NCBI RefSeq assembly: GCF_027887165.1
Contig: NC_077229.1
Coordinates: forward strand, 371,473,343-371,537,342
Direction: 5' to 3'
Source: Monodelphis domestica
Lineage: Eukaryota > Chordata > Mammalia > Didelphimorphia > Didelphidae
Length of the DNA: 64,000 nucleotides
Below the pieces are notes generated by a model. It was not told the DNA's origin. It saw nothing but the letters and a program-made list of their open reading frames with translations, and searched no databases. Of the stretch, positions 3,120 through 12,107 are shown piece after piece (position 1 is the stretch's first letter; each line of letters opens with the position of its first letter). Both the position numbers and the translations under genes were made by a program.

Positions 3120-3204
3120 TGAGCTTTTAAAACACAGAATAATTATGTGGCACCTTAGACATATAGTCCAATTTGCTCATTTTATAGATTAAAGAGACTC
3201 AGGC
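3120..3204 (+). mobile_element. MIR relic, left part (split by the ERV)
   Basis: The stretch 'attttatagattaaagagactcagg' type wording matches the MIR core. It continues after the ERV at 12108 with 'ccaattaaatacctgcccaag'. The last four bases (AGGC, 3201-3204) are the ERV target-site duplication. Confidence 0.6.
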
Positions 3205-3787
3205 TGTGAATTTTAAAAGTCTCCATCTTGGTCTAGCACCCAAAAATTGTGCACACCCACCTACACGGGCATGCGCTAGTCAATGACTAATCAGAAATAA
3301 TTAACTGCCCACCTGGGCTGTCCTAAGCCAAGCTAGAGCCAACCATTGGATTTGTGAGACACAGGAAGTGAGGTAGGGAACAGCCTCTGGAATTCGCGGA
3401 ACTTGCTGTGGAGAGAGCTAGGGGGAGTTGGTGTTAGGAGCTTGGAGAGAGAGGACGCCCGCAGACAGCTTTCCTTCAGATCGGTCACGTGAGTTAAGGA
3501 CTGGTTCTTTCCACCTGGGCCTTTAGGCCTAAACTCCCTCTGCCTTGGTCAGAGGTTGAGTAGCCTCTTTCCCTTTTCTCTTCTCTCCTTCTCTCCCTAT
3601 CCTTTTCCCTACTCCCAGTGTGATTAAACCTCCATAAACCTCATTCTGACTTGAGTGTTTCATTTTAGGAATTTCATAAGTAAATTCCTTGGCGGCCATT
3701 GTTAATATTATATAAATCTTGTAGCCACATTTGTAACCATTACTATATTATAACCTTCTCCCAGAAGCCTTAAATTTCCCCATTACA
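3205..3787 (+). repeat. 5' LTR of the ERV
   Basis: The LTR starts TGTGAA and ends CATTACA. Candidate promoter motifs are an AP-1-like TGACTAA near 3285, CCAAT in both orientations around 3340-3350, an ETS-like ACAGGAAGT near 3360, an E-box CACGTG at 3486-3491, and a YY1-like GCGGCCATTG near 3692. No clear TATA box lies upstream of the likely polyadenylation signal, ATTAAA at 3623-3628, which is followed by a GT-rich stretch. TATATAAA occurs only near the 3' end, around 3708. The U3/R/U5 limits are therefore uncertain, and the promoter may be TATA-less. Confidence 0.97.
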
Positions 3788-3790
3788 GTT

Positions 3791-3808
3791 TGGCTAACCA
3801 CTACGGGA
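3791..3808 (+). promoter_or_regulatory. candidate primer-binding site
   Basis: TGG starts three bases after the LTR end, the expected place for a tRNA primer-binding site. The 18 bases TGGCTAACCACTACGGGA do not match the 3' end of any common nuclear tRNA that I recall, so the primer tRNA is not assigned. The position is well supported; the primer identity is not. Confidence 0.55.
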
Positions 3809-4024
3809 AAAAGAACCTTATCAGTCTTCTGATCTCCTTACTATCACCTGGGAGAAATCCCACCCCGGCTACCCCCCCCCTGGCTCTTGGCCCTGCCTTA
3901 GTGCTTGGAAGGTTTCTAGAACCTCAATAAATTTCCTGAATTTTCTTGCCTTTTCAACCCACTTATTGCTCACTCCCTCAGTCCTGTTACCAAATACCTT
4001 GGCTTAAAGATACAGCTGCCAGAA

Positions 4025-4033
4025 CAGGTGAGT
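4025..4033 (+). promoter_or_regulatory. candidate major splice donor in ERV leader
   Basis: CAG|GTGAGT matches the splice-donor consensus closely. It lies about 240 nt after the LTR and well before gag, where simple retroviruses place their major donor. It could pair with acceptors at 10372-10373 or 10715-10716. Confidence 0.55.
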
Positions 4034-4213
4034 ATAAAACACCTTTTCTCTTTTCCCTTTACCCCTTAAGTTAAATTGGGGTCAACAGGATTTTTTTTTT
4101 CCTTCTCCTCTTTGTCTCTCATTTCTGTCTCCTTTTACTTTAAGGAGGTGGCTCAGTAGAGAGAGGCAGGCCAGGCTTACCTAATCAACTAAGCAAGGAG
4201 GAACCTCAGGAGA

Positions 4214-4233
4214 AGGAGCTCTTAGGAGCTCCT
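4214..4233 (+). promoter_or_regulatory. leader hairpin / palindrome (possible dimerisation or packaging element)
   Basis: AGGAGCTC and GAGCTCCT form a perfect 8-bp stem around the loop TTAG. AGGAGCTCCT (4224-4233) is also self-complementary, so two RNAs could pair. It lies between the splice donor and gag, where packaging signals usually sit. Function is inferred from position only. Confidence 0.35.
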
Positions 4234-4445
4234 AGCCCGCAAAAAACAGCTGAATACAGCTAGGGAGCTAACTTAAAACCAATTTTTTTTTCTGTTTCCT
4301 GGCCTTTCTACTCTTAAAAATTTAAGTGGGCTTTGCTCAAGGAAGATAGCACATGGTCATAGGGGCTTTAGCCTGAGGGCCAAAGAAGATTGCTGGGACC
4401 CACCCACATACACTTTGTAAAGAAGGAGAATTTACAATACAATAG

Positions 4446-4571
4446 GCCCTTAGCCTGTATAGGGTTGTAGACTCAGAGCCACCTATTGTAAAAAGAAAAA
4501 GCCTGTGGAAAGTTTGCTGCTTTGCCCTGCTCCCCACTTGCTTTGTGAAATTACAAAATATACATATAAAA
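4446..4571 (+). other. open in-frame extension upstream of gag AUG (no AUG)
   Basis: After the TAG at 4443-4445, the gag frame stays open for 42 codons to the first ATG at 4572. CTG codons occur at 4455, 4503 and 4527, and GTG at 4545. The predicted peptide has a basic KRK followed by a hydrophobic cysteine-containing run. Murine leukaemia virus makes glycosylated Gag from an upstream CUG, so non-AUG initiation is possible. It may equally be chance. Confidence 0.3.
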
Positions 4572-6431
4572 ATGAGTACTATATCCTTTGACAATTATAA
4601 GGCAGCTGAAGAAGTAGGGGCATTGAGGAATGAAGGATACCTCCAAATTTTTATATTAATAGGTACTGTCATTTTTGTACTCCTCAATACTATATTTAGA
4701 GATGAAAAAATAAAACAAATTGAGGATAAAATAAAACAAAATGAGGAGAAAATAAAACAAAATGAGGAGAAAATAAAACAAAATGAGGAGGAAATAAAGC
4801 AAAATGAGGATAAAATAGAAAATATTGAGGATAAAATAGGAAATATTGAGAATAAAATAGAAAAAATTGAGGATAAAATAGGAAATATTGAGAATAAAAT
4901 AGGAAATATTGAGGATAAAATGGGAAATATGGAAGATAAAATAGGAAAAATTGAGGATAAAATGCAAGCCCAATTAGAAGATCTAAAAAGTTTCTTACAG
5001 GATCAATTGACAAACAACCACTCTACCAGAAATAGACCTGTTTCTGAACCTTTGAATGAGGAAATTTCCTTCCCTGAAATAGAGATGGAAAATACCTTTC
5101 CTATAGCCAAGTTAACAGACTGCTTCTCTCGTGTAGTGCAAATCTTGTCTGAATTTAATCCCCAAAACCCTTCCCCGGCAATCCCAGATTCTCATGTTCC
5201 TTCTCCTACAGAAAACCAAATTCCAATGCAAGAGAGATCTTGTCCCCCTAGAAAAACCTGTCCTTGTCAAACTGACCCACAGGTGCAAAATCCAACTAGA
5301 GGCCTGTTTCCTCTAAGAGAAGTACCTGAAATAGGACGAAATGGGGATGTGGTGACTTTAAGACATAGGATACCGTTTACTCCCCAAGAAATAAATGAAT
5401 TTACACGAAATATTCCCACATATGAACAAGATCCTTTTCTAGTAACAAAAAAGATGGGAGACATATTTTTTCAGTATAATCCGTCTTACAAGGACGTTGA
5501 GAGCTTACTCCAGGCTTTTTTAAGTGAACGTGAAAAAAATAAAATAATTGCTCATGTCAACAAAACCAGGGGGCGTAATGCAGCACATTGGCCATCTCAG
5601 GATCCCGAATGGGACTATAACAATCCTGAGGATTATCTACAACTATACCGTTGTAGAGAGGCCATCCTCACGTCCATGAAGGAATGTGCGGACAGTACAG
5701 ATAAGTGGATGGAACTGGAAAAAATTAAGCAAAAGGAAAATGAAACACCCTCCAGATTTATGGACAGAATTATCGAGTTTGGGGACAGATACTTAGATTG
5801 GGACTTAACTAAAGAGAGTAGTATAAGACAAGCTAGAAGAATCTTTGTAAACAATTCTTGCAAAGCAATTAAAAATTATTTCAAAACACAATGCCCAAGA
5901 TGGTCAGATATGGACCTTGAAGAATTGCGAAAAACAGCTATATATGTTTTAAAGGGAAACGAAGAAAAGGAGAAAGAAAATGATGATGACATGGAGGAAA
6001 TGAAGAAAAAAATGAGATATTTAATAGATAGGATAACTAAATTAGAAAGTGGGCAGGGTAATGAACCAACGACAATTGCCCCTCTCCAGAAATCCAATTA
6101 TCAATCCATTACTTGCCACTTCTGTGAGAAGAAGGGCCACAAAATGATGGAATGTAGAACCTTTCTTAAGATGTTTGGAAGGAATACACAGTTTAATAAT
6201 AGTTTTAGAAATAATAACTATAATGAATATAGAAATAAGAACTTTAGAAACCAGAATTATAGAAATAGGAATTGGGAAATTAATGACAATGCTCAAATTG
6301 AAGAAAATTTTAATGATAATACTCAACAATATATGAGAAATGGCGCTCGTCCAAAAATTACTCGAGGTACTAATGACTCTCAGAGAGGTGCCCTTCAGGG
6401 GGGTGCCCAAGGAATATCCCAAACACAATGA
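4572..6431 (+). CDS. gag: ERV Gag polyprotein with N-terminal membrane segment and coiled coil
   Basis: It encodes the structural polyprotein that assembles the particle, 619 residues from the first ATG (4572, A at -3). The frame can be read back to a GTG at 4545, but ATG is preferred. Seen, in order: residues 1-22; a hydrophobic segment at about 23-42, probably membrane-spanning; charged heptads at 47-130 with Ile at position a and Asn then Ile at d, a strong coiled coil; a proline-rich linker at about 190-260; a capsid-like region with a major-homology-like segment at about 387-407; a highly charged stretch after capsid that resembles the gammaretroviral charged assembly helix; one CCHC zinc finger (CX2CX4HX4C) at 515-528; an Asn/Arg-rich tail. 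There is no N-terminal Met-Gly for myristoylation and no PPxY or PTAP late motif that I can see. The frame ends in TGA and pol continues in the same frame. The capsid and finger support a gamma-like Gag. The N-terminal half is unlike any matrix I recognise. Confidence 0.93.
   Translation: MSTISFDNYKAAEEVGALRNEGYLQIFILIGTVIFVLLNTIFRDEKIKQIEDKIKQNEEKIKQNEEKIKQNEEEIKQNEDKIENIEDKIGNIENKIEKIEDKIGNIENKIGNIEDKMGNMEDKIGKIEDKMQAQLEDLKSFLQDQLTNNHSTRNRPVSEPLNEEISFPEIEMENTFPIAKLTDCFSRVVQILSEFNPQNPSPAIPDSHVPSPTENQIPMQERSCPPRKTCPCQTDPQVQNPTRGLFPLREVPEIGRNGDVVTLRHRIPFTPQEINEFTRNIPTYEQDPFLVTKKMGDIFFQYNPSYKDVESLLQAFLSEREKNKIIAHVNKTRGRNAAHWPSQDPEWDYNNPEDYLQLYRCREAILTSMKECADSTDKWMELEKIKQKENETPSRFMDRIIEFGDRYLDWDLTKESSIRQARRIFVNNSCKAIKNYFKTQCPRWSDMDLEELRKTAIYVLKGNEEKEKENDDDMEEMKKKMRYLIDRITKLESGQGNEPTTIAPLQKSNYQSITCHFCEKKGHKMMECRTFLKMFGRNTQFNNSFRNNNYNEYRNKNFRNQNYRNRNWEINDNAQIEENFNDNTQQYMRNGARPKITRGTNDSQRGALQGGAQGISQTQ
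4710..4961 (+). repeat. 21-bp tandem repeat, 12 units, inside gag
   Basis: Each 21-bp unit encodes one heptad: five IKQ-type units, one of them IKQIEDK, then IEN, IGN, IEK, MGN and IGK variants. Units stay in phase for all 252 bp, with divergence rising towards the 3' units. Such coding minisatellites tend to vary in unit number between copies, so coiled-coil length may differ among family members. Confidence 0.9.
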
Positions 6432-6534
6432 TGGTGCCCGGGGGGGGCTAGGGCACAGGAATCAGAGGATACAACCTTTGATTTCCCGGACCCTGATGTC
6501 CTACTACCCGTTGTCCCTATCCACTGCCCTCCCC
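6429..6534 (+). promoter_or_regulatory. gag-pol stop codon (TGA) and candidate readthrough structure
   Basis: TGA at 6429-6431 is the only stop between gag and pol, and both lie in the same frame. Two candidate RNA structures follow. One is a 6-bp stem, GTGCCC (6434-6439) with GGGCAC (6451-6456). The other pairs eight G (6440-6447) with CCCTCCCC (6527-6534), allowing one G-U pair. The G-run begins 8 nt after the stop, the spacing known for the murine leukaemia virus readthrough pseudoknot. The structure is inferred and unfolded here. Confidence 0.6.
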
Positions 6535-9500
6535 ATACTAATGAACCCCATGTTACCTTAAAGGTGGGTAACACCTATTATGATTGTCTATTAGACACCG
6601 GAGCTTCCTGGTCTGTATTGAAGAGAAAACCTGATTTACAATGTTATTCTATTGGCTCAGAGAATGTAATGGGAGTATCAGGAATAACCCAAAGAGTTAA
6701 AAGACTTCCTCCTAGAATGGTGTCTGTAGGACCCCTAGAGGTACAACACTCTTTCCTTTTGATGCCTGACTCCCCTTTAAATTTGCTGGGGAGGGACCTT
6801 CTATGCAAACTCAGAGCCACAATAACCTGCTCCCCAGATGGCTCATTATCATTAGAAGTACCAGAGGAATCTTTAAAATTACTCCCTGTACTTCTCTCGG
6901 AAAACCAGGACGCAAAAGAGCCTTCCATTTTTGAAATACCTAAAGATATACCGGAGTCTCTTTGGGCCACATCTTCTTCTGATGTAGGCTTGCTTAAATC
7001 TGCTGTTCCTGTGCAGATAAAAACTAAATCTAGCCCACCTCCTTCTATCCCTCAGTATCCCCTCTCAAAGGAGGCAATTGAGGGTATTACACCAGTTATT
7101 AACTCATTAATAGAACAGGGAATAATAATCCCTTGCAAATCTGAATACAACACGCCCATCCTACCAATTAAAAAACCAAAAAAAGGGCCCGATGGCAAGC
7201 ACATCTATAGATTTATACAGGATCTAAGGGCAGTAAATAATCACGTTATAAAGAGACACTCCGTAGTTTCTAACATACATACTATTATTTCATCTATTCC
7301 TAGCACAGCTACATACTTTACAGTAGTAGACTTGTGTTCAGCCTTTTTTTCAATACCAATACATGAAAACTCCAGACATATTTTTGCTTTCACCTGGAAG
7401 GGCTCACAATATACCTGGTGTCGGCTGCCACAGGGTTATGTCGAAAGTCCGAGCTTATTTGAGCAAATTTTGAGCCAAGACACAGACAATATAACATTTA
7501 AAAATAGCAAATTAATCAAATATGTAGATGATCTACTCTTGGCTTCAACAGATGCAAAAACATGTCAAGAAGATAGCAAACACCTTCTTTTGGAATTGCA
7601 CAAAAGAGGTCATAAGATCTCGAAGGACAAAGTTCAGTGGTGTCTCCCCAAAGTAGAATATTTGGGGTTCATTCTGACAGCTGGTGCCCGCTCTATTTCT
7701 CCCAAGCGAATTGAGAATATTCAAAAATTGAGTGCTCCTACTACTAAAAAACAGTTAAGAGCAATTCTGGGAGCAACAGGGTTTTGCAGACAATGGATTC
7801 CTTGTTATGGGGAAATTACTAAACCTCTTATAGCACTAACAAGGGATGTAGTCCCTGAACCCCTCAAATTAGAGCCTGAACACCTGTCAGCTCTATCAGA
7901 GCTAAAAAAGGCTATCTTATCTGCCCCTGCTCTAGGCATCCCAAATTACAACAAGCCATTTACTTTGTATGTACATGAACGAAGAGGAGTAGCCTCTGGT
8001 GTTTTAACTCAGACTTTGGGACCTTCTCAGCGTCCAATTGCCTATTATTCTGCCCAACTAGACCCAGTAGCAGCAGGAGCACCACCATGCCTTAGAGGAG
8101 TAGCTGCTACAGCCTTACTAGTAACAAAAACCGTTGATTTAGTATTGGGATGTCCATTAACAATAATGTGCCCACATGAGATTGAAGCATTATTGGTAAA
8201 ACATAGAACACAGGCATTCTCGGATCAGAGAATTACAAGGTATGAAATAACCTTATTAAATAGTGAAAATATTACCTTGAAACGCTGTTCAACTCTTAAC
8301 CCTGCCACCTTGCTTCCAGATTTACCTACTTCAGGAGAACCACTACATAACTGTGAAACATTAGTGTCCATGGCAGAAAAGCCTCGAGATAATCTCTTGG
8401 ACACTCCCTTAGAAAATGCAGATCTGATTTTATTTACCGATGGTTCCTCTTTTATGAGGGATGGCATACGTTACACTGGAGCTGCCGTAGTCTCAGAATT
8501 TGCCACTGAATGGTCAGCTTCACTACCTTCTAACATTAGCGCTCAAGGAGCAGAGCTCATAGCTCTGAAACATGCCTGTATAATTGCCAAGGATAAAAAG
8601 GCAACAATTTATACGGATTCTAGATATGCTTTTGGCATTTGTCACTCAGTCGGGATGCTATGGCTCCAGAGAGGATTTTTAACCTCAGCTGGAAAATCCA
8701 TAGCTAATGCAGAAATTATTAATGAAGTTCTTTCTGCTCTCAAACTGCCTAAAGCCCTAGCTGTAGTTCATTGCTCTGCCCATACAGGTGGCTGTGACCC
8801 TGTCTCTAGAGGAAATGACCGAGCAGATGCCGCTGCAAAACTAGCAGCCATAGAAGGACCTGGATTAATTTTAACATTAACAACCACTGATAATTTAAAT
8901 TTATCACTCTCCTATAATGAAAAGGAAGTGGAAAAATGGAAACAAAAATTTAAAGCAAAACAAATTAATGGAGTATGGGTGTCATCTGAAGGAAAACCCC
9001 TGCTCCCTAGAAGTTTCTATAACCAAATTTGCCAATCTATTCATAAAAATGGTCATTTTGGTACCCAGGGCATCGTGGACTCTGTTAAGAGAGTATGGAT
9101 AGCCCCTGGCATAACTACCATAGCCTCTAAAGTGTGTTCATCCTGCCCTACCTGCCAGGCATATAACCAACATGCCTTTCGTGGTAAAGCCTTTGGTGGA
9201 CGTCCTCTGGCTTACACACCTTTTGAGCACCTGCAGATAGATTTTATAACGATGCCAAAGGCTGGACAATATAAATTTTGTTTGGTCATAGTAGACCAAC
9301 TGACCAGATGGCCGGAAGCATTTCCTACAGCCCGAGCCACAGCAGCTTTTGTTGCTAAGGTGCTTTTAAAAGAAATTATTCCTCGTTTTGGCCTACCAGC
9401 ACGTATTGACTCCGATAGAGGGAGTCATTTTACCGATTCTGTCTTAAACCAGATATATTCTTGCTTGGGGATAACTCCAAAATTCCATGTTCCATATCAT

Positions 9501-10019
9501 CCCCAGAGTTCAGGCCAAGTTGAGAGGATGAACAAAGAACTTAAAACTATGATTGGAAAATTATGCACTGAGACCCATTTAAAATGGCCTGAAATTCTCC
9601 CTTTGGCCCTATTTTATCTTAGAAGCAGGCCTAGAGGAGACTTACATATTTCACCATTTGAGATGCTTTTTGGACATCCGCCTATACAGGCTAAGCCTTT
9701 CTCCCCGGCTTATACATCGTTATTAGGGGGAGATACTACTATTGCTTCCTATATACAGGAATTACAGCACAAACTGCGTGAGCTACATGAATCCGGAGCT
9801 GCAGTACAAGCTGGACCACTAGACTTCTCACTTCACGACCTGAACCCAGGAGACAACGTGTATATAAAGAACTTCCAGCGTACAGGAGCAACCCAGCCTT
9901 CCTGGGAAGGACCATTCCAAATATTGTTAACTACTCCAACATCTATAAAGGTTGGAGAAAAGGACTCTTGGATTCACTGTTCTCATGTAAAGAGAGCATC
10001 TTCTGTTGAGACTGATTGA
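6432..10019 (+). CDS. pol: ERV Pro-Pol polyprotein (protease, RT, RNase H, integrase)
   Basis: It is expressed most likely as Gag-Pro-Pol by suppression of the preceding TGA; 1,195 codons stay open. The first ATG or GTG is not used as a start, since a GTG at 6564 lies right at the protease. Numbering from 6432: protease DTGA at 55-58 with GRDLL near 120; RT with LPQG at 332-335 and YVDD at 364-367; RNase H acidic residues D670, E708, D729 and D796; integrase zinc site H871, H875, C905, C908, then catalytic D937, D995 and E1031, with exactly 35 residues between the last two; a C-terminal GPY/F-type module (WEGPF...WIH.SHVK). This order and the last module fit gammaretroviruses. No frameshift or stop was found, so the enzyme set may be functional. 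The frame ends at 10019 with no overlapping env. Confidence 0.96.
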   Translation, partial: WCPGGARAQESEDTTFDFPDPDVLLPVVPIHCPPHTNEPHVTLKVGNTYYDCLLDTGASWSVLKRKPDLQCYSIGSENVMGVSGITQRVKRLPPRMVSVGPLEVQHSFLLMPDSPLNLLGRDLLCKLRATITCSPDGSLSLEVPEESLKLLPVLLSENQDAKEPSIFEIPKDIPESLWATSSSDVGLLKSAVPVQIKTKSSPPPSIPQYPLSKEAIEGITPVINSLIEQGIIIPCKSEYNTPILPIKKPKKGPDGKHIYRFIQDLRAVNNHVIKRHSVVSNIHTIISSIPSTATYFTVVDLCSAFFSIPIHENSRHIFAFTWKGSQYTWCRLPQGYVESPSLFEQILSQDTDNITFKNSKLIKYVDDLLLASTDAKTCQEDSKHLLLELHKRGHKISKDKVQWCLPKVEYLGFILTAGARSISPKRIENIQKLSAPTTKKQLRAILGATGFCRQWIPCYGEITKPLIALTRDVVPEPLKLEPEHLSALSELKKAILSAPALGIPNYNKPFTLYVHERRGVASGVLTQTLGPSQRPIAYYSAQLDPVAAGAPPCLRGVAATALLVTKTVDLVLGCPLTIMCPHEIEALLVKHRTQAFSDQRITRYEITLLNSENITLKRCSTLNPATLLPDLPTSGEPLHNCETLVSMAEKPRDNLLDTPLENADLILFTDGSSFMRDGIRYTGAAVVSEFATEWSASLPSNISAQGAELIALKHACIIAKDKKATIYTDSRYAFGICHSVGMLWLQRGFLTSAGKSIANAEIINEVLSALKLPKALAVVHCSAHTGGCDPVSRGNDRADAAAKLAAIEGPGLILTLTTTDNLNLSLSYNEKEVEKWKQKFKAKQINGVWVSSEGKPLLPRSFYNQICQSIHKNGHFGTQGIVDSVKRVWIAPGITTIASKVCSSCPTCQAYNQHAFRGKAFGGRPLAYTPFEHLQIDFITMPKAGQYKFCLVIVDQLTRWPEAFPTARATAAFVAKVLLKEIIPRFGLPARIDSDRGSHFTDSVLNQIYSCLGITPKFHVPYHPQSSGQVERMNKELKTMIGKLCTETHLKWPEILPLALFYLRSRPRGDLHISPFEMLFGHPPIQAKPFSPAYTSLLGGDTTIASYIQELQHKLRELHESGAAVQAGPLDFSLHDLNPGDNVYIKNFQRTGATQPSWEGPFQILLTTPTSIKVGEKDSWIHCSHVKRASSVETD

Positions 10020-10373
10020 CTGTATCCTATACATGCATTGGAGATAACTATACATTGACAAGTGGAACTGTTTTATTCTGCTTTTGACACATTGAATTCC
10101 TAAATTTAATTTTTTTCCTTTTTTCCTTTTTTTCTCTTTTCCTTATTTTATTATTATTATTATTTTTACATTATTTTATTTTTTTACCTTTTTCTCATTT
10201 CTATGTACTTTAGGTACATATGATCAATATTAATTTTTATTCTACAATATTAGTTTAAATATATATACTTGTTGTTATTATTAATATGCACCCAAACAGC
10301 TTTAGACTATGGGAACCTGCCATTTATTGATAATTGTTGTGGGACTATGATTAATGTTTGTGTCTGATTCTAG

Positions 10374-10457
10374 ATATGAGATCAAACAAGGAGCACAGAT
10401 ATAACCTGGATAATGCCAAAAGAGCTCACAGGTCTAAAAATCAAAAGACCAATCCAG
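10374..10457 (+). CDS. candidate small ERV exon encoding a basic peptide
   Basis: An acceptor-like site (TTCTAG, 10368-10373) is followed at once by ATG (10376-10378). The frame runs 27 codons to a donor-like CAG|GTAGGA (cut after 10457). Eight of 27 residues are Lys or Arg against two acidic. If unspliced it ends at TAA 10487-10489 (37 codons). If spliced to 10717, the frame continues to a TAA at 10806-10808. Small basic first exons are typical of retroviral RNA-export or accessory proteins, but I see no true homology. Speculative. Confidence 0.3.
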
Positions 10458-10689
10458 GTAGGATTAATACATTTCTAAGCCAATACTAAGGACTTGAACC
10501 TAGTGTGAGACTCGGGGTTGCGACACTTGACAGACGTTAAGATGTAGGCCTTCCCTGTATCCACACTCTTCGTGAAAATACCTACAGACAAGTACCTAAG
10601 GTTGGCTACCATCCTGGCTCCATCCATCCCTGAGAACGAAGGTAAAAATCAGACGAGGGAATAACACTTCCCTAGATATAAAATAAAAA

Positions 10690-10819
10690 TCTGGTCCTCT
10701 TTTTTCTCTCCTATAGTATGGCAACTTCCTGTAGCCTGGGCTGCAAATGGGGAAGTAAAATTATGCTACATTCTGTCCTACAGACTTGTGGGATTAGAAA
10801 TTACTTAACTGGACCCTAA
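10690..10819 (+). other. candidate splice acceptor and downstream mini-exon
   Basis: A strong pyrimidine tract ends in CTATAG (10711-10716). An ATG follows at 10718-10720 and opens a 33-codon frame to TAA at 10817-10819. The other frame, entered from the exon ending at 10457, runs to 10808. Either the acceptor serves a small spliced message, or this is a remnant of the env acceptor. Confidence 0.35.
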
Positions 10820-11097
10820 TACAGAGGCCTGTGGGAAAAAAAAAAAATTTTTTTTATTCTTGCTTTCTCAAATTTTGTATACATAGATTTTTTGATTTTG
10901 ATACTGATTTTGAATTCTTTAATGTAAATATGCATATATAAAGGGTTATATTTTTTTCCCTTAATTTTTTCCCTTTTTCTTCTTTTGATTTTGATTTTAT
11001 TTTGATATTGTTTTGTTTTTCTTTTGAATTAACTCACACACCCCCACAACTAAAACTTGAATCCTCAGCTGGACTCAGTGTTTTTTCAACACGTTCT

Positions 11098-11111
11098 TCA
11101 GGGGGGATTGT
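11098..11111 (+). repeat. internal copy of the polypurine-tract/LTR junction motif
   Basis: TCAGGGGGGATTGT occurs here and again at 11510-11523, where it spans the polypurine tract and the first bases of the 3' LTR. The sequences around the two copies differ. Confidence 0.75.
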
Positions 11112-11511
11112 ATTTCATCAAATCCAAGATTTAAATTTTGTTCGAGAGAGAAATCTTCAGAGAAGCTTGCTAACTAACTGAATCCAGAGAATGAACTGTT
11201 TGCAGAAAGATATCTAAACCTTTTCACTACAGGAAGATCCAGAATGAACCTTGGGGTGTGGTTGATTGAACATTTTTTTGAATGTACACTCTTATGCCAA
11301 AGGGGACTGCCCCCTAATTGGCTTTTGTCAATGCGCCCAGCAAAACATTGGTTTGCTGTCTTTCTCTCTCCTCTATTTCCCCATATTTACAACTATTATA
11401 ATTGTCCTCTTAGTGGAAAAAATTTGTATACACTTATAGTTAGAAATTTTTGGGGTGCAGTATGCTTATGTTTAGTGATCAATTGGGGAGACTAGTCTCC
11501 CAATCATCATC

Positions 11512-11520
11512 AGGGGGGAT
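11512..11520 (+). promoter_or_regulatory. polypurine tract (plus-strand primer)
   Basis: AGGGGGGAT lies directly before the TGTGAA start of the 3' LTR, as required for plus-strand priming. It is short but has the six-G core seen in gammaretroviral tracts. Confidence 0.85.
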
Positions 11521-12103
11521 TGTGAATTTTAAAAGTCTCCATCTTGGTCTAGCACCCAAAAATTGTGCACACCCACCTACACGGGCATGCGCTAGTCAAT
11601 GACTAATCAGAAATAATTAACTGCCCACCTGGGCTGTCCTAAGCCAAGCTAGAGCCAACCATTGGATTTGTGAGACACAGGAAGTGAGGTAGGGAACAGC
11701 CTCTGGAATTCGCGGAACTTGCTGTGGAGAGAGCTAGGGGGAGTTGGTGTTAGGAGCTTGGAGAGAGAGGACGCCCGCAGACAGCTTTCCTTCAGATCGG
11801 TCACGTGAGTTAAGGACTGGTTCTTTCCACCTGGGCCTTTAGGCCTAAACTCCCTCTGCCTTGGTCAGAGGTTGAGTAGCCTCTTTCCCTTTTCTCTTCT
11901 CTCCTTCTCTCCCTATCCTTTTCCCTACTCCCAGTGTGATTAAACCTCCATAAACCTCATTCTGACTTGAGTGTTTCATTTTAGGAATTTCATAAGTAAA
12001 TTCCTTGGCGGCCATTGTTAATATTATATAAATCTTGTAGCCACATTTGTAACCATTACTATATTATAACCTTCTCCCAGAAGCCTTAAATTTCCCCATT
12101 ACA
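11521..12103 (+). repeat. 3' LTR of the ERV
   Basis: The same 583 bases as 3205-3787; reading both in full I found no mismatch. It supplies the ATTAAA polyadenylation signal at 11939-11944. AGGC (12104-12107) follows. Confidence 0.97.
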
Positions 12104-12107
12104 AGGC

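Follow-up and report, generated by a model that had tools for sequence, protein, structure and literature searches.

A predicted transmembrane segment and heptad coil at the matrix site of Gag in a gamma-like endogenous retrovirus of Monodelphis domestica

The stretch of Monodelphis domestica DNA analysed here (64,000 nucleotides, hereafter the window) contains a provirus whose Gag opens with a predicted membrane segment and a heptad helix at the place where a matrix domain is expected. This arrangement had been proposed in the original prediction from the sequence, and it is borne out by the hydropathy profile, by the helix in an AlphaFold2 model and by the absence of a Pfam matrix domain from the N-terminal region. 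On balance, and with a little more than even confidence, we favour the reading that, in this young, env-less, gamma-like endogenous retrovirus (ERV), a membrane module consisting of a signal-anchor and an oligomeric coil replaces the myristoylated matrix, and that assembly takes place on the ER membrane.

The provirus, its class and the env region

The coordinates given below refer to the window, and the LTRs, reading frames and protein segments all lie on the plus strand. The window contains a single provirus, at 3205–12103. The 5′ LTR (3205–3787) and the 3′ LTR (11521–12103) are identical at 583 of 583 bases and are flanked by a 4-base target duplication, AGGC (3201–3204 and 12104–12107), which together mark the insertion as young. 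The gag ORF (4572–6431) comprises 619 codons and a TGA stop, with an A at position −3 of its ATG, and this stop (6429–6431) divides gag from the same-frame pro-pol ORF (6432–10019) in a readthrough layout. Pfam models matched the protease, reverse transcriptase (RT), RNase H and integrase in pro-pol, including the integrase core domain and an MLV-type integrase C-terminus (PF18697, E = 2.6e-15). The identical LTRs, the target duplication and the open gag and pol argue for an element that was active using this Gag or received help in trans.

Just 3′ of the gag TGA, an inverted repeat formed by GTGCCC (6434–6439) and GGGCAC (6451–6456) surrounds a G-run; this region (6429–6456), spotted by eye, is reminiscent of a gammaretroviral readthrough element. 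A string resembling a polypurine tract, AGGGGGGATTGT, occurs twice, at 11100–11111 and 11512–11523, the first copy lying about 410 bases ahead of the tract at the 3′ LTR. The bases that follow the 5′ LTR (3788–3810) match no tRNA 3′ end that we know of. ARAGORN found no tRNA genes in the window, and no Rfam family was matched within the element at the gathering threshold.

Residues 276–435 of Gag (5397–5876) correspond to a gammaretroviral-type capsid (CA), which matched Gag_p30 (PF02093) with an E value of 1.8e-13, above the cut-off. In a comparison with PDB sequences, five of the seven matches at E ≤ 1 were gag or capsid p30 chains, which we take to be those of MLV (best match, 6hwx_A, E = 1.2e-12), and the remaining two were weak and unrelated. 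A single CCHC zinc knuckle (CHFCEKKGHKMMEC; residues 515–528, 6114–6155) was read off the sequence. A 4-base target duplication and a single zinc knuckle are gamma-like (class I) traits. The features of class I were all present, namely the Gag_p30-type capsid, the layout with one stop between gag and pro-pol, the integrase C-terminus, the 4-base duplication and the single knuckle. Judged by the sequences of its capsid and pol, the element is a gamma-like (class I) ERV. It was kept out of the genus Gammaretrovirus because neither a Met-Gly matrix nor an env was found in it, and out of the IAP family (class II) because its CA and integrase C-terminus fit gammaretroviral models, a placement made by model matching.

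The rest of the window held no other copy of the element, as searched by blastn with the element and by tblastn with its proteins. Among viral contigs, five stretches fitted the pattern with CA as the query, none of which was confirmed, and RT as the query gave no relatives.

In the expected env region (10020–11520), no env is recognisable. This stretch of about 1.5 kb downstream of pol holds 14 stop-free plus-strand pieces of at least 35 amino acids, the longest of 105 amino acids, and the three pieces examined (105, 79 and 47 amino acids) matched no Pfam family at E ≤ 5. Thus, an intact or recognisable env appears to be absent, and a heavily decayed env could sit in the other 11 of the 14 pieces. 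The likely mechanism considered below turns on this missing env.

The N-terminal region of Gag

Translation from the first ATG of the gag ORF (4572) begins with MSTISFDN, that is, with Met-Ser and without a glycine at position 2, as had been noted originally. Residues 1–22 (4572–4637) form an acidic flank that is predicted to be lumenal, with a net charge of −2 by count, and residues 23–42 (4638–4697) form the single predicted transmembrane (TM) or signal-anchor span; both segments are also seen in the alignment with the relative P0003 (see below). The TM call rests on Kyte-Doolittle hydropathy and a simplified insertion-energy sum. The best 19-residue Kyte-Doolittle window (KD19), at residues 24–42, scored 2.41, the next best beyond residue 50 scoring 0.78, so the strong hydrophobicity originally ascribed to residues 23–42 is confirmed. 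The net charge is −2 before the span and +1 after it; the acidic character expected of the preceding flank therefore holds, but the following flank is positive only weakly.

When the whole Gag was shuffled 20,000 times, the score of 2.41 was reached in 4 cases. In a harder control, which consisted of 544 stop-to-stop peptides from the remainder of the AT-rich window, 7 peptides scored at least 2.4 and 87 scored at least 1.6 within their first 46 residues. Chance hydrophobic N-termini are therefore not absurd, and the conservation of the span matters. The same counts lend something to a reading that we consider unlikely, in which the coil is a neutral minisatellite, the TM is a tolerated extension, and Gag functions by CA and nucleocapsid (NC) without membrane anchoring. 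A protein search with residues 1–50 gave nine candidates, none at E ≤ 10, among proteins of about 340–1083 amino acids, a range outside which P0003 (303 amino acids) falls.

The span is followed by 12 heptads (residues 47–130, 4710–4961), which are predicted from the heptad register and AlphaFold2 to form a parallel coiled coil, and by two weaker heptads, MQAQLED and LKSFLQD (residues 131–144, 4962–5003). The 12 heptads are encoded by a 21-bp tandem array of 12.2 copies (4707–4963). Across the 12 units, position a is Ile in 11 and Met in 1, position d is Ile in 7, Asn in 4 and Met in 1, position e is Glu in all 12, and position g is Lys in 11 and Glu in 1. The heptads had been described as perfect, and the 12 units are indeed exact, but the word is slightly generous, with Asn at 4 of the 12 d positions. 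The hydrophobic bias at a and d (0.78) was above that of all 20,000 shuffles of the segment, and several coiled-coil Pfam models matched the heptad stretch under their cut-offs. In opposition to a neutral minisatellite, positions a, e and g are compatible with a coiled coil in 12, 12 and 11 of the 12 units, respectively.

In the AlphaFold2 model of the N-terminal 170 residues, a single confident helix extends from residue 6 to residue 150, with block-mean pLDDT values of at least 90 across residues 21–140, in agreement with the helical segment of the original prediction. Since this run was of a single-sequence monomer, it supports the helix and says nothing on the oligomer. A fold search of viral structures with the helix returned four weak matches, none at E ≤ 0.001, a result that is uninformative for a lone helix.

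For the oligomeric state, Glu at e together with Lys at g fits parallel helices. Ile/Ile cores favour trimers. The Gag heptads with Ile at a and Asn at d follow the [I/V]xxNxxx pattern, and heptads of this pattern recur in trimeric coiled coils, according to the available part of PMC12933892. In the same source, engineered GCN4 trimers lost much of their stability when Asn was placed at d, and the four consecutive Asn-d layers in the Gag coil count against a trimer. Taken together, the heptad sequences suggest a parallel homo-oligomeric coil, most likely a trimer.

In the linker (residues 145–275, 5004–5396), which separates these heptads from the capsid, no matrix domain was found. Residues 132–263 matched no Pfam family at E ≤ 5, and no matrix family at the Gag N-terminus was among the Pfam matches listed (25 of 26). 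A motif scan of the whole Gag found none of the PTAP/PSAP, PPxY and YPxL late motifs. The model of full-length Gag was poor (mean pLDDT 46, from four sequences, with the linker mostly below 50), and it was relied on for the N-terminal helix and the linker's want of confident structure alone.

A matrix concealed elsewhere was also considered and rejected. The leader contains no plus-strand ORF of at least 80 amino acids and no stop-free stretch longer than 69 amino acids, and its longest piece, the one piece that was run, matched no Pfam family at E ≤ 5. The N-terminus and the linker as far as residue 263 likewise gave no family at that threshold.

Ahead of its ATG, the gag frame stays open over another 42 codons (4446–4571). 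This stretch holds no ATG but has CTG codons in frame at 4455, 4503 and 4527, and its conceptual translation is basic, with mild hydrophobicity towards the end (best KD19, 1.44). The sole leader ATG upstream of gag, at 4353, opens a 7-codon uORF. Given the open frame and its CTG codons, a glycoGag-like non-AUG start upstream of 4572 is conceivable, and it would put a basic stretch ahead of the span, which could alter the orientation. It is improbable, in our estimation, that the span lies N in/C out like that of MLV glycoGag, as part of an accessory membrane Gag made perhaps from a non-AUG upstream start, with the ordinary Gag beginning past the TM. Such a product would suit the open frame with its CTG codons and basic stretch, as well as the database model of the relative P0001, which starts beyond the TM, and it would resemble MLV glycoGag, an N-terminally extended, CUG-initiated membrane Gag that is predicted to be type II in the available part of PMC12530543. 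However, if translation starts at the AUG, the flank charges point to N out; past the TM, no matrix domain was found; and the database model of P0003 begins at the homologous Met.

Relatives of the Gag and the length of the coil

Four protein relatives were found (P0001–P0004), three of them from M. domestica, in support of a marsupial origin. P0003 comes from another gene model of M. domestica (LOC130457502, 303 amino acids) and starts at the Met homologous to that of the window Gag. The TM of P0003 is identical to that of the window Gag at 19 of 20 residues, the one change being conservative, and this degree of conservation is at odds with a merely tolerated extension. The N-terminal flank is identical at 18 of 21 aligned residues with one further residue gapped, the linker at 86 of 93 residues, and residues 241–373 at 131 of 133 residues. 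The flank charges (−2 and +1) equal those of the window Gag. Between the TM and the shared tail, P0003 has a single repeat-type heptad. Residues 8–10 of P0003 read N-Y-T, which places a glycosylation sequon in the N-terminal tail predicted to be lumenal; the window copy reads N-Y-K there.

For P0001 (M. domestica, 650 amino acids), 19 repeat-type heptads and the tail were observed; its TM is not visible because the database model begins at the array edge, downstream of the TM. P0002 is a truncated fusion that starts in the linker. It joins the CA of this Gag family directly to RT and, by its sequence, seems to derive from the element by deletion. P0004 (306 amino acids, from a 1,051-base contig) is 56% identical over half of the query. 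Its N-terminus is different and non-hydrophobic, without Met-Gly, and shows neither a TM-like span nor a coil, as might be expected if the module were dispensable in the way that the neutral-minisatellite reading supposes; possible reasons are a wrongly placed start and a real absence of the module from this relative.

In total, one of the four relatives shows the TM, two cannot show it and one lacks it. Related copies with a normal matrix had been named in the original prediction as a sign that the module arose by local rearrangement; none was found among the four, and P0003 has the TM module. These comparisons indicate that the N-terminal module, as far as the aligned sequences go, is not a private accident of the window copy.

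The tail formed by MQAQLED and LKSFLQD is common to P0001 and P0003, with one substitution in the second heptad in each. With the tail included, the coil comprises about 3–4 heptads in P0003, 14 in the window Gag and 21 in P0001, and its length is elastic because it is encoded by the 21-bp tandem repeat. The 12 heptads of the original prediction are real in the window copy, but their number is not fixed, the repeat copy number being variable; this variability is also what a neutral minisatellite would display. On these sequences, the TM is the common part of the module and the long coil is its length-variable part, and the variation may mean that Gag tolerates a long array without making use of it.

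A second in-frame tandem repeat of gag (6228–6273), with a 15-bp unit rich in Asn, Arg and Tyr codons, lies 3′ of the zinc knuckle, and P0001 is 23 residues longer immediately ahead of this repeat. As both the heptad array and the region at the 15-bp repeat vary, two parts of Gag change length in whole codons.

Membrane orientation, assembly and known parallels

In the mechanism that we propose, residues 23–42 would serve as a signal-anchor that is inserted co-translationally into the ER, placing the short acidic N-terminus in the ER lumen and all of Gag beyond the span in the cytosol. The parallel coil would cluster Gag and keep the capsid away from the membrane. The capsid lattice would then grow on the cytosolic face, and particles would be pushed into the ER or kept intracellular, the outcome being an env-independent retrotransposon life cycle. 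The TM and the helix are predicted, and we infer the orientation, the ER destination, the trimer and the budding route.

Under the positive-inside rule, the flank charges of −2 and +1 favour a lumenal N-terminus and a cytosolic capsid, although the charge bias is modest; the cytosolic capsid of the original prediction is thus the favoured arrangement. This orientation, if correct, would allow NC to contact RNA directly. A signal-anchor inserts into the ER, which makes the ER the most likely site. A signal-anchor by itself does not keep a protein in the ER, and a signal-anchor Gag without an ER retention signal could move onward to the plasma membrane. On this ground one might suppose that the signal-anchor works but that Gag travels through the secretory pathway to the plasma membrane, where the module would replace the myristate and env would come from other elements. 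The LTR identity, which marks recent integration and does not tell the route, is compatible with this supposition. Nevertheless, we regard it as unlikely, as env is not recognisable and the scanned late-motif classes are absent. The lack of a recognisable env and of a scanned late motif fits assembly at an internal membrane instead.

A more elaborate form of the ER reading is put forward only tentatively, at clearly less than even confidence: an integral-membrane orthoretroviral Gag in which an N-out signal-anchor and a trimeric coiled-coil stalk have taken over fully from the matrix, the stalk length being tuned copy by copy as 21-bp units are gained and lost, and with an ER budding route independent of that of IAP.

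Among known systems, IAP, ERV-L and MusD are described in the available text of PMC3197615 as having lost env and altered the N-terminus of Gag, and in that of PMC4643047 mouse IAP is said to combine env loss with an ER-targeting signal. A passage of PMC3945221 cites work in which SRP brings IAP Gag to the ER membrane, and MuERV-L particles are placed in the ER in a passage of PMC5930517. Like IAP, MusD and MuERV-L as portrayed there, the window element is without a recognisable env and has an altered Gag N-terminus; unlike them, it has a gamma-like capsid and integrase, and a TM and heptad coil at the matrix site. By analogy, and within the available parts of these sources, IAP is the closest working parallel, and the architecture of the window Gag differs from that of every system compared.

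FcERV_gamma6 and MLERV1_3 are gamma-like, env-less and retrotransposing, and they keep a matrix that evolves faster but is about as intact in coding sequence as the other domains, according to the available part of PMC4643047, where the shift of MLERV1 is said to have come with little sequence change. They share a gammaretroviral origin and env loss with the window element, whereas no matrix was found in the window Gag. For MLV glycoGag, the TM lies ahead of MA and is predicted to be N in/C out, with type I also reported, in the available part of PMC12530543. MLV glycoGag, as described there, is an extra CUG-initiated form preceding MA, whereas the window TM opens the AUG-initiated Gag, in which no matrix was found.

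The Gag N-terminus of foamy viruses is not related to the orthoretroviral matrix and multimerises via a coiled coil, in the available part of PMC3649970. By the same account, the coil of foamy virus Gag is dimeric, a folded head is present and the Env leader is bound by this Gag. The window Gag differs in having a predicted TM and a repeat-built helix. No head fold is seen in the AlphaFold2 model of Gag residues 1–170. Ty1 is a different kind of element. Its Gag is targeted co-translationally to the ER by SRP and enters the ER lumen, with a proposed return to the cytosol (available part of PMC3945221).

These precedents narrow the original reading of the module as a different solution to Gag membrane targeting and multimerisation. 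A changed N-terminus combined with env loss was already known for IAP, ERV-L and MusD (passages of PMC3197615 and PMC4643047), and MLV glycoGag is already a gammaretroviral Gag with an N-terminal TM (passages of PMC12530543). In the available open-access literature, no description of a TM and heptad-coil Gag of this architecture was found, and such a Gag is not described in the available parts of PMC11334065, PMC8278194, PMC8672886 and PMC6466679. Within the compass of these sources, the pairing of env loss and a changed Gag N-terminus is a known principle, and this architecture in a gamma-like element looks new. The first interpretation was therefore right in direction but incomplete, with the env loss, the IAP precedent and the elastic 21-bp array left unmentioned.

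Overall, env loss together with an altered Gag N-terminus is thought to convert retroviruses to retrotransposons (available part of PMC3197615). By analogy, the path of the window element to a purely intracellular jumping gene was probably independent of those of IAP, ERV-L and MusD, and convergent with them. The series of coil lengths (about 3–4, 14 and 21 heptads) and the sequon of P0003 offer natural handles on spacer length and topology. If the proposed reading is true, the intracellular shift would have happened separately in a gamma-like lineage, one that has a plain TM and lacks a matrix, and the matrix would be reducible to an anchor and a multimeriser.
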